Shown here: positions 11,453 to 17,124 of the stretch, piece after piece
How the letters are laid out: each line of letters opens with the position of its first letter
How positions within the stretch are numbered: the stretch's first letter is position 1
IMG/VR virus record: IMGVR_UViG_3300025132_000413
Location: 1 to 20,088 of that record
Origin: a virus
Direction: 5' to 3' (one strand)
DNA length: 20,088 nt
Notes under the pieces: generated by a model
Databases searched by the model: none
What the model saw: only the letters and a program-made list of their open reading frames with translations
What the model was told of the DNA's origin: nothing
Translations under genes and position numbers: made by a program

Positions 11453-12780
11453 CAGGTGTTCTTGGAAAAATGTAACCCGTAGGAATCACGTATCAAATTT
11501 ATAGATGTAACAGATTTCTCTGCTTCAAAATAATGACAAAGAGATTGAATAATATAATTACCACTGGATTTTTGATCAGGGCCTTGTTCCTTTTTCTCAG
11601 TTATATCTTCAATTTCAAGACGTAAAGTATCTCCAGCTTCTAAATCAGTGTTGCATGGAATTGTAATAGAATGTTTTTGAGAAAATAGTATATTATATCT
11701 AGTAGTTCCAGCAGCATAATATAATTCGGGACTATTATTTGGATCTATATTTTCTTTTTCTGCACCAATATTTAACACAGCAGTTTGAACTCTATGAAAT
11801 TTATTCCCTGCTTTAAATTCTTCATCTAATATACTAGGTATCTCTGGTTTTTTACCCAAAGTATTAAATTTAGGATCCTTATATAACTTTCCATTATCAA
11901 CAGTAATATCAATTTCTGTAAATCCATATGTTGCAGGATTAAAGAAAATTGTTTTATTAGCATATACTCCAGATCTAATCTGAGATACAAGATTTTGATC
12001 TTTTTTAACTTGCAAAGATGCTATTTTATAATCATTCTTTTCACTCTTAGATTGTTGCATTGATGTAACTTTACCATCATAAAAATATGATTCCTTATAT
12101 GGTTCTCCATTAACCAAACTATCAACAGAAACATACCTAAATCCAGATTTAGTTTCATATGCAAAATATCCAGGATTAGCTGTATTTTGAGGTATGGTTT
12201 GCTTTGCAAGCATAGAAATCAAATCAAATGGTCTTTTAGTCATTCCAGCAAATGAATATGAATTACTACTATCATCAATCTTAATTCTATCATCATCCAA
12301 TTTTAATTCATTCTTAAGAATTTTTTGAACTGATTGTGAAATACTACCGTCATAATGCTGTGTAACTCTTTTAATATTATTAGTCCATCCAATTTTTGAA
12401 ATAAATCTCAATTGAATAATTTCCATTGTTGAACTCTTTGATATCACTTGAACTTCATTTACATAAAATCTTTTATGAACATTCTTATCTGATGAAAAAT
12501 CCAATCCTTCCCCTATAGGATCCTTAATTTTCATAAAAATTTCACATCCAGCTTCTAATGGTAAAGAAGCATGTAAAGATCCCATTCTATCACTATCTGA
12601 AGATTTAGAAGCACCAGAAGTACTAGTAATAGTAATAATACCTGTTATATAAGGTGACAATATATTCTCATAATAATAGATATTATTAATCCTAAATTGA
12701 CCCTTTGCAAAATCTACTTCATTCTTACCATCAGCAGATTTTATTTTAAATACTTTATAATGTGATTCTTGTACAGACAT
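11452..12780 (-). CDS. 27: Baseplate hub subunit, gp27-like
   Basis: This is a 442-residue protein; its ATG overlaps the previous stop by one base (TAATG). The N-terminus 'VDFAKGQFRINNIYYYENIL' followed by 'PYITGIITITSTSG' (residues ~22-55), the middle 'KRFYVNEVQVISKSSTMEII' plus 'LRFISK' (~103-129), and the C-terminal 'RYNILFSQKHSITIPCNTDL' with 'GDTLRLEI' (~361-390) and 'SGNYIIQSLCHYFEAEKSVT' (~406-425) are the alternating beta segments expected of the T4 gp27 / gpD-type hub, a ring that joins tail tube and spike. T4 gp27 is about 390 residues, so this one is slightly long. The order tape-measure region, gp27-like, OB-fold protein fits a hub operon. The gp27 label is from pattern and context rather than an alignment. 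Confidence 0.7.
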   Translation of the reverse strand: MSVQESHYKVFKIKSADGKNEVDFAKGQFRINNIYYYENILSPYITGIITITSTSGASKSSDSDRMGSLHASLPLEAGCEIFMKIKDPIGEGLDFSSDKNVHKRFYVNEVQVISKSSTMEIIQLRFISKIGWTNNIKRVTQHYDGSISQSVQKILKNELKLDDDRIKIDDSSNSYSFAGMTKRPFDLISMLAKQTIPQNTANPGYFAYETKSGFRYVSVDSLVNGEPYKESYFYDGKVTSMQQSKSEKNDYKIASLQVKKDQNLVSQIRSGVYANKTIFFNPATYGFTEIDITVDNGKLYKDPKFNTLGKKPEIPSILDEEFKAGNKFHRVQTAVLNIGAEKENIDPNNSPELYYAAGTTRYNILFSQKHSITIPCNTDLEAGDTLRLEIEDITEKKEQGPDQKSSGNYIIQSLCHYFEAEKSVTSINLIRDSYGLHFSKNT

Positions 12781-13799
12781 TATGGCACCCTCATATCAGA
12801 ATTATTTAATGATGATGGAATTGGATCCACATGAGAAAGTGATCCACCAGAATTATTACTTTGTCCATTACTTACCATTTTTTCTACTTCTATAGGAATA
12901 ACAACTGTCTTAACATTTGCATCTCCCATATTACCTTTTAGATCCCGACTATATTTTTCCACTTTACTTATTATACCTTTAGTCGAAGATGCTATATCCG
13001 AAGAAATGGCACCTTGATCACCACCACCCACAATATTCTGAGATTTTTTACCATCACTACCCAAGAGTTTAGAAGGATCTATTGCTAAAAGAGATTCAAC
13101 AGGACTTTCTTCCTCTTCTTCCTGCTGTTCCTTCTCTGCATTTTTTATTTCTGCTTTTTCTTCATTACTCTCACTTGTCTTAAGTTGTTGATCTGCATTA
13201 TCTGGAGTAGATTTACTAATTTTAGCCTTCTCACTTTCAGTCGATTTCTGAGAATTATCACTTTCCAATCCAGGAACATTTGAAGCAAGAGTATTTACTT
13301 CCTTTTCAACAAGTGCAGAACCTTCAGATAAGGCTTCAATATTTTTTTCAGATTCTTTTTTATTAAAAAATCCCATTATCCAACCACCAAATTTAAATAA
13401 AGCCTTTGCAATGGTACTTGTTACTTTCCATACAACCTTTATTAAAGGTGAAACAATATCAAATGCAGTTTTTAATCCCTTAATAATACTAGGTAATTTA
13501 TCAACCAAAAACCCCATCATAAGATAACCAAAGAAATTCAATATCCTATCCTTCATACTCATTACCACTCCAGTTACATTACCCAATACACTTTTAATAG
13601 GACCACCCTTAGACTGCTTCTTTTCTATGTTTTTCTCAGCAGTCATTCTTTCAGCCTGCAATGCTTGTCTACGAACCAAAGATGATTTTTTAGAATTTAA
13701 TTTAGACAAATTTTTATTATTCTCGGTTAATACACTTCTAATATTAACTGCAGTAATTTTTAATTTTGTTACTTGTTCCTTTTTAATTGTTGTTGGCAT
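12780..13799 (-). CDS. Tail hub/tape-measure-associated protein with hydrophobic segments (339 aa)
   Basis: This is a 339-residue protein whose ATG overlaps the preceding stop by one base (TGATG). Residues 1-60 are basic and helical (coiled-coil-like: KLKITAVNIRSVLTENNKN). Residues ~85-145 are strongly hydrophobic with aromatic residues (NFFGYLMMGFLVDK at 88-101; WKVTSTIAKALFKFGGWIMG at ~124-143), like the membrane-active helices of tape-measure proteins. Residues ~150-235 are very acidic and low in complexity, ending in a run of glutamates. The C-terminus is Ser/Asn/Gly-rich. Its FFGxLxxGFxxDK motif is shared with the 565-aa neighbour. I do not know a T4 equivalent. A role in the tail lumen or hub, perhaps as a second tape-measure component, is inferred from position and composition. 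Confidence 0.7.
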   Translation of the reverse strand: MPTTIKKEQVTKLKITAVNIRSVLTENNKNLSKLNSKKSSLVRRQALQAERMTAEKNIEKKQSKGGPIKSVLGNVTGVVMSMKDRILNFFGYLMMGFLVDKLPSIIKGLKTAFDIVSPLIKVVWKVTSTIAKALFKFGGWIMGFFNKKESEKNIEALSEGSALVEKEVNTLASNVPGLESDNSQKSTESEKAKISKSTPDNADQQLKTSESNEEKAEIKNAEKEQQEEEEESPVESLLAIDPSKLLGSDGKKSQNIVGGGDQGAISSDIASSTKGIISKVEKYSRDLKGNMGDANVKTVVIPIEVEKMVSNGQSNNSGGSLSHVDPIPSSLNNSDMRVP

Positions 13800-15496
13800 C
13801 AGTCAAATATCCCCAATTCTTCTTTTACATACATTGGATAAAAATTAGAAGGATCTTCTGCACCTATAATAGGCATTGAATCTCCATCACCCCTAATACC
13901 AGCCTTCTGTTTTGCATTAGCCATATCACCCAACTTAACAGTATCCATAACTGTTACACCACTTTTTGACGGTGCTTGAAGATTTTGTGCTGTGGATTTT
14001 ACATTTCCAGAGAAATCCATTTGAGTAGCAGTATTTACTACACTCTTATAATCCTGCTCAACAGAACTAATGTCTGCAGTTTCTGTTTCACCAGATTTAC
14101 TCTTCTTATGGTCTCTTACCATACTACCAGCATCAAGAGCAACAGAAAGAGCAGTTCCAACACCTGGAATCATAGATGCAGCACCAGATCCTAATTCAAG
14201 TGCAGCACCCATCCAATCAGGAGGACTTGATAATAATCTCCCTACTGCAAATGCAGCACCCATTCCCAATCCAACAATTGGAATTTTCTTAAGTAATCCT
14301 TTTCCTCCTGCTTTACCCAAACCTTTTATTAATCCCTTTCCACCACCTTTTACTATTGCTTTTGCACCTTTAGCAAGATTTTTTGCTCCTTTTACACCAG
14401 ATTTACCAGCATTAACTATACCCTTTCCCATACCCTTAAGACCTTTACCAATACCTTTTATCCTCTTCATTCCCTTTTTACCAAATAAAGCAGTTGCAGC
14501 ACGTGATGCAATTTTTCCTGCTTTACCATACTTAAATATAGATTTTGCTATTCTAATAGCATTCTTTATAATATTAATAGCACCACCAACAAATTTACAA
14601 ACACCAACAATAACTTTAACAAATTTCTTAACAATAATACCACCTACAAGAATACCAAGACCTGCTGCAATTTTTGCTCCATGATCTCCAAGAAACTTAA
14701 AAAATCCTATAACAAATTCCTCATTCTTTGATAACCATTTTAATGCTTTATCTGCTATAAACCCTGCTGCCAAATTACCAAAAAATCCTATCATTTTATC
14801 TAATATATTTTTTGCAGGAGCAGTAACAGCACTAAATGCAGTACCAACTTTAGAACTTATCTTATTAACAGTCTCAATACCAGATTCTAAATTACCACGT
14901 TTCTTAGAATCAGCAGAAGATTTTAAAGCAGATATCTCAGTTTCCTTTTCAGTAATTCTATTTGCAAAATCTTTAGCTAATGCATTACCAATGTCTTCAA
15001 GTGTATCAGATACTTCATCTAACGGATTTTCCTTACCTCCATATGGTTGTTGCTGTATTTTAATAATTTTCTTAATAGTAGTAATTTTCTGTTCATTATT
15101 AGCAACTCTTTTTTCTAATTGTTCTAAATCTGTTTGACCACCTGTCAATCCAAGTCCTTGTGGTGTAATAGCACCTCCTGAACTAGGACTTAATCCTTCA
15201 CTATTAGAAATTGGATCACTAGCATCAATAGGACCAAGGGCACTTGATTTTTTAAAGGATGCACCACTTATCTTATTCTTCCTGAATAATGCCTTTCTAT
15301 CACCAGCAGAAAGATACTCACCCTTAGATGTGGTACCAGAACTCCATATAGGTTCTTTACCTATGGTTTTTTTAGCACCACCAGAAATAGAGGAACGTTT
15401 TGCAAGTGCTTTAGCTCCACCAGACACTATTGCTCCACCCATCTTTCCTGCGGGTAATGCTCCTGCTATTTTTGCCCCAGTTAATAGTGCAGCCAT
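13799..15496 (-). CDS. Putative tail tape-measure protein (565 aa)
   Basis: This is a 565-residue protein with ATG at 15496; an AGGAGG sequence lies 13 bases upstream inside the end of the gp51-like frame. The first 120 residues are Gly/Ala/Ser-rich and disordered. Coiled-coil-like stretches fall at ~122-148 and ~170-205. A hydrophobic block starts with GFFGNLAAGFIADK (237-250) and continues with IAAGLGILVGGIIVKKFVKV (~276-295). Residues ~320-403 form a Gly/Lys-rich run (KGIGKGLKGMGKGI and similar), followed by hydrophobic glycine-rich helices (IVGLGMGAAFAVGRLL, ~407-422). The size is close to T4 gp29 (about 590 residues), the tape-measure and hub protein. The position directly after the gp26/gp51 chaperone-like pair is where tailed phages usually keep the tape-measure gene. 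No sequence similarity to gp29 was established. Confidence 0.65.
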   Translation of the reverse strand: MAALLTGAKIAGALPAGKMGGAIVSGGAKALAKRSSISGGAKKTIGKEPIWSSGTTSKGEYLSAGDRKALFRKNKISGASFKKSSALGPIDASDPISNSEGLSPSSGGAITPQGLGLTGGQTDLEQLEKRVANNEQKITTIKKIIKIQQQPYGGKENPLDEVSDTLEDIGNALAKDFANRITEKETEISALKSSADSKKRGNLESGIETVNKISSKVGTAFSAVTAPAKNILDKMIGFFGNLAAGFIADKALKWLSKNEEFVIGFFKFLGDHGAKIAAGLGILVGGIIVKKFVKVIVGVCKFVGGAINIIKNAIRIAKSIFKYGKAGKIASRAATALFGKKGMKRIKGIGKGLKGMGKGIVNAGKSGVKGAKNLAKGAKAIVKGGGKGLIKGLGKAGGKGLLKKIPIVGLGMGAAFAVGRLLSSPPDWMGAALELGSGAASMIPGVGTALSVALDAGSMVRDHKKSKSGETETADISSVEQDYKSVVNTATQMDFSGNVKSTAQNLQAPSKSGVTVMDTVKLGDMANAKQKAGIRGDGDSMPIIGAEDPSNFYPMYVKEELGIFD

Positions 15497-15502
15497 CTTA
15501 TT

Positions 15503-15691
15503 TTACATTCCTCCTTTTTGCTGATGCTTTAGGTTTTCTTCCTCAATATATTGTTGGAGAAGGGAGACATATATTTCTCTTTCCCACGGTATCATGTTTT
15601 CAAGCTCTGTTAAGCTATATTTATGGTGCTGCATGAGAGCAAAGTTTGTCCGATAGTAATTCTCTAAACTCTCATGTGCCAGAGCTAACTG
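15503..15691 (-). CDS. 51: gp51-like hub-assembly segment, likely made as a gp26 -1 frameshift extension
   Basis: This short frame is too small for routine ORF calling. It is open from 15709 (after TGA at 15710-15712) to TAA at 15503-15505. Read from the CAG at 15691 it gives 62 residues: QLALAHESLENYYRTNFALM, then a stretch with YSLTELENMIPWEREIYV and a basic-acidic helix ending KGGM. It resembles the short gp51-like proteins annotated between gp26 and the tail genes in marine T4-like phages. The only ATG that would give more than a few residues is at 15634 (43 aa), which would cut off the conserved-looking 'LAHESLENYYRTNFAL' part. The frame begins exactly where a T TTT TTC slip in gp26 would deliver the ribosome, giving a 301-residue gp26-gp51 fusion. 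Independent initiation at 15634 is the alternative. Confidence 0.6.
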   Translation of the reverse strand, partial: QLALAHESLENYYRTNFALMQHHKYSLTELENMIPWEREIYVSLLQQYIEEENLKHQQKGGM

Positions 15692-16407
15692 AAAAAAGAT
15701 GCTAGTCCCTCAATTACCACCTCACTCTCAACTTTAGTTTCTGGATTTGTAACCTTAACCTTATGAGATAATTTAGGCATCGTTTCAAAAAATTCCTCAA
15801 CCATTTTAAATTGTTTAGAATTCATCTGTTCAACAAAATCTTTCAATTCTTTTTTAGTACACTCTGAAGCATCCCATGCCTCTTCTTCATTATAAACTTG
15901 ATTTATACAATTCATAATAACATCAAGAGATTGATCAACTTGTGGTTTATCCGTACCCGTTTCAAAATTAGATTCAATAAATTGATTTAATGATGGATAA
16001 TTCATTTGAACAGATAATTGATCATCTAATTTAATAACATTAGTATGATTTTTATTTTTCTGAACTTTAATAGAATCAATGTCAATTTCCATTTGAACTT
16101 GTGTTGTTCCATCATCAGGACAAGTGACATTCACTTCTACAGTTTCACCTACAGATTTAGCTCTAATATTTAAAAACAAATATTCAATGTCAAAAGTTGG
16201 CAATTTATCAACCTTGATTCCTCTAGTACTAATACAATCACTAATAACAGATTTAATTGCATTAGTAATTTGTTTAGTATCTTCAGATTCCAATGCCATA
16301 ATTAAAATCTTCTCTTCTTTAACTAAAAAAGGTCTATATTTAACTTTTTTTCCATTAGAGGGCAATACCAACTCATAGAGTGGTGTAGAAATTTTTGGTA
16401 AAGGCAT
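15685..16407 (-). CDS. 26: Baseplate hub subunit / tail assembly chaperone-like gp26
   Basis: This is a 240-residue protein with ATG at 16407, preceded by a 27-bp gap holding a good late-promoter match. It has the features of the T4 gp26 baseplate family: 'YRPFLVKEEKILIMALESED' near residue 24, 'LPTFDIEYLFLNIRAKSVGE' near 69, a 'NVTCPDDG' turn near 93-100, and a C-terminal part with 'FVEQMNSKQFKMVEEFFETM' (~191-210) followed by 'VVIEGLASFFS'. T4 gp26 is about 208 residues and acts in hub assembly. The gene ends at TAG two codons past a slippery T run, and a conserved-looking gp51-like frame continues in -1. The short product would be 240 aa and the frameshifted product 301 aa. The family is confident; the chaperone comparison is inference. 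Confidence 0.8.
   Translation of the reverse strand: MPLPKISTPLYELVLPSNGKKVKYRPFLVKEEKILIMALESEDTKQITNAIKSVISDCISTRGIKVDKLPTFDIEYLFLNIRAKSVGETVEVNVTCPDDGTTQVQMEIDIDSIKVQKNKNHTNVIKLDDQLSVQMNYPSLNQFIESNFETGTDKPQVDQSLDVIMNCINQVYNEEEAWDASECTKKELKDFVEQMNSKQFKMVEEFFETMPKLSHKVKVTNPETKVESEVVIEGLASFFS
15691..15697 (-). promoter_or_regulatory. Putative programmed -1 ribosomal frameshift site (T TTT TTC)
   Basis: On the minus strand the gp26 codons read TCT TTT TTC AGT TAG, so the heptamer T TTT TTC is in the X-XXY-YYZ register required for simultaneous -1 slippage. Slipping avoids the TAG at 15685-15687 and enters the gp51-like frame at CAG. Four bases downstream, AGCTCT (15686-15681) can pair with AGAGTT (15672-15667) around an 8-base loop with one G-U pair, a modest hairpin. 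The same logic operates in lambda G/GT and many other tail-chaperone gene pairs; use here is inferred. Confidence 0.6.
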
Positions 16408-16431: not shown

Positions 16432-16440
16432 TATTTATAG
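16432..16440 (-). promoter_or_regulatory. Late promoter for gp26 and downstream tail genes (CTATAAATA)
   Basis: The minus strand reads CTATAAATAAAACACTG, an exact match to the T4-type late promoter TATAAATA, with the preceding C often seen in such sites. The motif ends 24 bases before the gp26 ATG, leaving a leader of roughly 17 bases if transcription starts at the usual distance. It overlaps the TAA stop (16435-16437) of the tail-tube-fold gene. This is the strongest promoter-like match I found in the window. Confidence 0.6.
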
Positions 16441-17124
16441 TACCTTATCTATAACTTTATTGAGAATTTTTGTAAGGAGAGATTTTTTATTTGGATCAAG
16501 GATATACCTATCATAAGCAAACTGAACGGTTACTTTCAAAATATCTGCTTGGCCATAATTAACTGGTATAGAAGTCATTCCTTTTGGAAAAGCATTTATA
16601 AATTTATATGTAATGGATTTATCCATATCTTTTTCAAATTTTGTAATGGATAAACAACCAGATTTATACCCAATCTTATTATCTCTATTCATAGGATAAT
16701 TGAATCTTCTATAATAATTTTCACTATCATTTTTAGTTATTCCTTCAACATTATCATCTCCAGAAATATAATCCATCCAACCTTCAAAAAATTTAAGTAC
16801 ATTATAATCTTGATCAACATAAAAAGTAAAATCACTATCAATATAGAGTCTAGTATGAGCAAATTGTTGATTTATACCTTGAAAATTATCTTTAACTTCT
16901 GCTGTAGCAAATGAACTTGTAGGCAATGATGCTTCTGAACACATTATTCCAATATCCCCTCCATAAGAATATCGATAATTGACATCATAAGCAGAAAGCA
17001 AATAATCTTGAAGTTCATCAGTTATACCAGAAATATGAACTTGATACTGATTGTTTAATGATAACTTACTAAGATCCATTTTAGTAAGTGCATTCATCTT
17101 ATATTTGGAAATAATACCTGCCAC
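16435..17124 (-). CDS. Tail-tube-fold protein, gp54-like (baseplate-tail tube initiator) or gp19-like
   Basis: This is a 229-residue protein starting with GTG at 17124, chosen because AAGG lies about 8 bases upstream and the next ATG would remove the N-terminal MAGIISKYK. Sequence typical of T4-type tail tube proteins is visible: 'GDIGIMCSEASLPTSSFATA' (~56-75), 'HTRLYIDSDFTFYVDQDYNV' (~90-109), 'LKFFEGWMDYISG', then a basic strand region with 'YKFINAFPKGMTSIPVNYG' and 'LKVTVQFAYDRY'. These are the inner-surface and inter-subunit strands of the gp19/gp54 fold. T4 gp19 has 163 residues and gp54 has 320. The intermediate length, the baseplate-gene context and the neighbour across the divergent promoter favour a gp54-like initiator, but a tube protein cannot be ruled out. 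Confidence 0.65.
   Translation of the reverse strand: MAGIISKYKMNALTKMDLSKLSLNNQYQVHISGITDELQDYLLSAYDVNYRYSYGGDIGIMCSEASLPTSSFATAEVKDNFQGINQQFAHTRLYIDSDFTFYVDQDYNVLKFFEGWMDYISGDDNVEGITKNDSENYYRRFNYPMNRDNKIGYKSGCLSITKFEKDMDKSITYKFINAFPKGMTSIPVNYGQADILKVTVQFAYDRYILDPNKKSLLTKILNKVIDKVL

Follow-up and report, generated by a model that had tools for sequence, protein, structure and literature searches.

Among the closest described counterparts of the locus analysed here are the gpG and gpGT proteins of phage lambda, which follow the same short and long frameshift logic as gp26 and gp26-gp51. In lambda, the tape measure is bound by both proteins, and recruitment of the tail tube is the task of T (PMC5009743). 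We found no sequence relation between the two systems, and their slippery heptamers differ. The phage studied here is also contractile-tailed, unlike lambda, and a G/GT-like function would be assigned to its proteins by analogy. A second relevant system is E. coli dnaX, which, like the Kyanoviridae relatives described below, combines a 5′ SD-like element, a homopolymeric heptamer and a 3′ stem-loop. The dnaX heptamer is A AAA AAG, in contrast to U UUU UUC here, and slippage shortens the product in dnaX whereas here it would lengthen it. Finally, the TAC genes of the Vandenendeviridae and Andersonviridae (phage Adele, PMC12846349) carry a conserved -1 slip on a T-run, and their C-terminal domain is made only as a fusion. 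They differ from the present case in belonging to other phage families and in using a GTTTTT motif.

The tail assembly chaperones of T4-like phages were reportedly identified by Vladimirov, Gautam and Davidson (Virology 2022;566:9-15), whose abstract is said to assign T4 genes 26 and 51 and to describe frameshifting as kept in several T4-like groups. The paper on phage Adele, in the passage that cites this work, gives it as the source for poly-T -1 slip sites in T4-like TAC-N genes (PMC12846349), and the corresponding passage of another paper, which also cites it, mentions that some T4-like phages have one short gene and one long fusion gene (PMC10885494). T4 gp26 and gp51 are elsewhere listed as hub assembly chaperones; gp51 is essential, of unknown function, and required yet absent from the particle (PMC3004832). 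The original prediction for this DNA took the frameshift to be not established for T4-like phages, which the 2022 report and the poly-T sites mentioned by the citing papers contradict. The principle is already published in outline and our result is mostly confirmation. The two-sided stimulators and the altered N NTT TT(T/C) site of the Ackermannviridae may be undescribed details, and it is the architecture of the signal that deserves further work.

The DNA analysed (the window) is a 20,088-base IMG/VR virus record in which the gp26 locus and its neighbours all lie on the minus strand (Table 1).

Table 1. Features of the gp26 locus, in window coordinates
Feature	Position	Strand	Evidence
Tail tube protein, upstream gene	16435..17124	(-)	Pfam Phage_TTP_2 2.3e-20, phrog_45 7e-33
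Gene 26, TAC-N-like short form, 240 aa, 27.4 kDa	15685..16407	(-)	ORF call, Pfam, PHROG
SD-like GAGGGA, 8 nt upstream of heptamer	15706..15711	(-)	enriched at the codon level in Kyanoviridae relatives
Slippery heptamer T TTT TTC (zero frame TCT TTT TTC)	15691..15697	(-)	
Zero-frame stop TAG, one codon past heptamer	15685..15687	(-)	
Candidate 3′ stem-loop, ~6 nt past heptamer	15662..15684	(-)	weak in window, strong in relatives
-1 frame extension, gp51-like/TAC-C-like, 62 codons + TAA	15503..15691	(-)	phrog_634; T4-type gp51 profile
Candidate tape measure, next gene, 565 aa	13799..15496	(-)	position; weak PHROG matches in other phages

The protein encoded by gene 26 matches PF12322 (Pfam T4_baseplate; 1.1e-74) and phrog_150 (baseplate hub, gp26 family; 2e-79). 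Its gene ends, in the zero frame, with GCA TCT TTT TTC AGT TAG and thus includes the predicted in-register T TTT TTC (15697..15691 in the coding direction). The heptamer does lie just before the gp26 stop, but its placement two codons upstream was slightly loose, since a single sense codon (AGT) separates it from TAG. It is of the dnaX type, X XXY YYZ, and is accompanied in the window by a weak candidate 3′ stem-loop. The coding strand of the window contains a single TTTTTTC over its entire length, and all the minus-strand genes together contain four in-frame copies of T TTT TTN.

Past the slip site, the -1 frame reads CAG TTA GCT CTG ... and continues to a TAA at 15505..15503. As predicted, it is free of stops for 62 codons and lacks an ATG in the first 19, the first being codon 20. 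The gp51-like identity proposed for its product is borne out by a match to phrog_634, the "baseplate hub assembly catalyst" family of gp51 (2.1e-30). The product also matches the C-terminal columns of phrog_150, and a profile of the extension aligns with the C terminus of T4-type gp51 (E 1e-12). The locus therefore has both parts that characterize the T4 gp26/gp51 family, a PF12322 domain and a C-terminal piece that shares ancestry with the end of T4 gp51. The predicted gp26-gp51 fusion would measure 301 aa and 34.8 kDa, with ..GLASFFQLALAHESLE.. as its expected junction peptide.

Relatives were collected as 80 viral contigs fetched via the extension, 87 fetched via relatives of gp26, and named phage records, and their junctions (n=175) were classified using profile HMMs built on the gp26 domain and on the extension. 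The gp51-like part lies in the -1 frame in 174/175 junctions, and T TTT TTC, T TTT TTT or T TTT TTG is present in the slipping register in 170 of them. Heptamer-bearing junctions occur in Kyanoviridae and in KVP40-like Vibrio, rhizobial, Pseudomonas and Aeromonas phages, and include those of P-SSM2, Vibrio QD01, Sinorhizobium phiM7 and phiM9, Pseudomonas pf16, Rhizobium RHph_Y68, Aeromonas G2, Pelagibacter Mosig, Agrobacterium Atu_ph04 and Stenotrophomonas Yut2. The five junctions without a canonical heptamer belong to three Ackermannviridae-type phages and to two contigs with a broken gp26. These two contigs (L021, L077), considered as possible true exceptions, were left uncounted, as their gp26 frames are truncated or split. 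Stenotrophomonas phage IME-SM1 (L087 3700-3760) has a longer annotated gp26, which we attribute to a probable one-T homopolymer artefact by comparison with Yut2 (L195).

Codon choice at the site was analysed in 83 non-redundant junctions picked from the heptamer-bearing ones. The codon preceding TTT is AGT, GAT, TCT, GCT, AAT or ACT, and so ends in T, in all 83. Given the codon usage of the genes themselves, and with the sequences taken as independent, a T-ending codon followed by TTT at this frequency has p ~1e-30, a rough figure given that the sequences share ancestry and that presence of the heptamer was the basis of their selection. At Phe-Phe pairs elsewhere in the same genes, T TTT TT(T/C) is found in 5/87 cases.

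The ends of Ackermannviridae-type gp26 genes (L089, L090, L095, L193, L194) are likewise followed by a gp51-like extension in the -1 frame. Their slip site is N NTT TT(T/C), in the forms CTT TTT, ATT TTC, GTT TTT and CTT TTC, and resembles the T7 gene 10 type. In one phage of this type, Klebsiella phage Magnus, the first part of the extension is devoid of start codons.

A candidate for the predicted hairpin 3′ of the heptamer is present in the window, but it starts about 6 nt downstream rather than 4 and is weak when considered alone. Its folding energy, -6.4 kcal/mol, is not significant against dinucleotide shuffles (z -0.25); with synonymous-codon shuffles the z score is -2.1. Among the relatives, an RNAalifold consensus over all downstream regions failed to yield a shared structure, as the register of the hairpin varies among clades, and a synonymous-shuffle test was used in its place, in which 36-nt windows were compared with versions carrying synonymous codons. 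The first 36 nt past the heptamer fold much more stably than these versions, with a mean z of -3.67 in 51 Kyanoviridae-type junctions, 90% of which fall below -1.5, and of -1.55 in 33 junctions of other types, and the score decays to about 0 further downstream. The typical cyanophage hairpin begins 5 nt past the heptamer and has an 11-bp stem (GTATGGCTCA.../...TGAGTCATAC), and another marine group carries a GCCTC...GAGGC stem at the same place. When pairs were counted over the Kyanoviridae hairpin, 85.7% of cells were paired, compared to 26-43% in slid versions; covariation alone is modest because two-sided changes are few (5 cells).

Kyanoviridae also carry an SD-like element about 9 nt upstream of the slip site which is stronger than synonymous codons predict. 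For the Kyanoviridae-type group, 16S anti-SD pairing in the segment from -18 to -7 relative to the TTT codon has an energy of -8.05 kcal/mol, compared to -5.15 kcal/mol for synonymous versions, and no comparable anti-SD peak occurs away from the slip site in the stretch tested. The effect is slight outside this group. Taken as a group, the Kyanoviridae-type junctions thus have what would be a 5′ SD-like stimulator, and the window has GAGGGA at this place.

One alternative is that gp51 is a separate small gene with its own ATG past the gp26 stop, expressed by reinitiation or coupling, and that the T6C run simply reflects a Phe-Phe ending of gp26. An in-frame ATG does precede the gp51 core in 53/83 non-redundant junctions, often just past the gp26 stop, and gp51 is annotated as an independent gene, with the ATG inside the hairpin, in the GenBank records of P-SSM2, L082 (5010-5183) and other cyanophages. 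Against this, there is no ATG before codon 20 in the window and no ATG, GTG or TTG before the core in 26/83 junctions, while four more have only TTG or GTG. A separate gp51 start may operate in the 53 junctions with an ATG. In Kyanoviridae the ATG, where present, sits in an arm of the 11-bp hairpin, with the SD-like GGAGG about 24 nt upstream of it; judged by its position, this GGAGG would be too far from the ATG for initiation and is suitably spaced for the heptamer. The absence of start codons together with the position of the Kyanoviridae ATG means that a separate gp51 start cannot be the general mechanism. The T before TTT is moreover set by codon choice in the heptamer junctions, and in T4 the same fusion is encoded as a single polypeptide. 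A separate gp51 gene consequently appears quite improbable as a general explanation, although a separate start could add product in some phages. The independent gp51 gene of cyanophage GenBank records is likely a misannotated frameshift extension, and many such public annotations are probably wrong. Two large Aeromonas phages (L091, L181) lack a usable start codon in the part of the extension that precedes the core, which recommends them as test cases of obligate frameshifting.

Two other explanations place the change of frame outside translation. A gene split by a homopolymer sequencing error might be suspected, since a six-T run is error-prone and IME-SM1 has five T where its relative Yut2 has six. 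Yet the six-T run and the -1 register recur in 170/175 junctions from contigs and isolates, with the zero-frame stop nearby, and this conservation makes an error extremely improbable and already refutes it in practice. Slippage of RNA polymerase on the T run, giving mRNAs one base longer or shorter, has precedents on T/A runs in bacteria (PMC5009743). We nevertheless regard it as very improbable here: the run is of only six T, and the phase of the heptamer is under selection, as are the SD-like element and 3′ hairpin at spacings appropriate for a ribosome.

Translational frameshifting is thus the preferred reading. From the comparative sequence data, we consider it very probable that a -1 frameshift at the end of gp26 yields a short gp26 and a long gp26-gp51 which would form a tail-assembly chaperone pair. 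That a frameshift makes gp26 and gp26-gp51 in analogy to G/GT, as originally proposed, is strongly supported by the conservation of the heptamer, the -1 register and the 3′ hairpin and, in cyanophages, of the 5′ SD-like element. Gene 26 would encode the short form. Some of the ribosomes, holding two Phe-tRNAs on U UUU UUC, would slip one base back, miss the UAG and read 62 more codons to give the long form. Slippage would probably be stimulated by the downstream stem-loop and, in the cyanophage clade, additionally by pairing between 16S rRNA and the SD-like sequence upstream, in the manner of E. coli dnaX. The analysis demonstrates the anatomy of the sequence, its conservation, selection at the codon level and homology to T4 gp51 over the entire fusion; slippage in the cell, its efficiency and the chaperone role are inferred.

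Production of two forms by frameshifting is not universal among T4-like phages. T4 carries genes 26 and 51 on opposite strands and uses no frameshift, and separate short and long genes are also found in RB43, SW69-9, LF73P4 and 10 T4-type viral contigs, the phage types with this layout being T4, RB43, Krischvirus and Aeromonas 44RR-type. Both T4 proteins match PF12322 over its full length (gp26 8.8e-64, gp51 3.9e-52). They are paralogues, and T4 gp51 is composed, like the fusion predicted in the window, of a gp26 domain and a C-terminal piece, the latter being 27% identical to the window extension (E 6e-5). The frameshift fusion aligns with T4-type gp51 end to end through the junction (hhalign E 6e-23, columns 26-302 with 6-251), and T4-type gp26 aligns as a profile with the N-terminal part of gp51 (E 5e-21). 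T4 would accordingly obtain the same two proteins from its paralogous genes 26 and 51. In a midpoint-rooted tree built on the domain that they share, gp26 and gp51 of the T4 type form a group with a support of 0.98, which is consistent with one duplication in that lineage. We suggest, tentatively and as somewhat short of an even chance, that in cyanophages a dnaX-type two-sided stimulator tunes the ratio of short to long form, and that recoding gave way to two genes through one duplication in the T4 lineage, making gp51 in effect a former frameshift product. The two layouts provide a natural comparison of recoding and gene duplication for setting the ratio of two protein forms. The relationship also helps to make sense of T4 gp51, the "hub assembly catalyst" not found in the virion, which would represent a tail assembly chaperone in its long form.

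On the model of lambda G/GT, gp26 and gp26-gp51 would act as chaperones, many short and few long copies coating the tape measure and recruiting tail-tube subunits. A good structural model of T4-type gp51 (pLDDT 85.6) matched only members of its own family in BFVD, and a search of the PDB gave no convincing counterpart. The gene that follows the extension was predicted to be the tape measure, an assignment which is plausible but weakly supported. Relatives have an ORF of 530-705 aa after the extension, sometimes with a short ORF between, and the equivalent gene has weak tape-measure PHROG matches in QD01 (1e-4), phiM7 (2e-5) and pf16 (0.0085). The window gene itself gave no clear tape-measure match in the PHROG search and no match to T4 gp29 by HMM comparison. 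Where T4 has genes 27-28-29, the window (12780-15496, minus strand) encodes two consecutive poorly annotated proteins of 565 and 339 aa, either or both of which may serve as the equivalent of the T4 tape measure.
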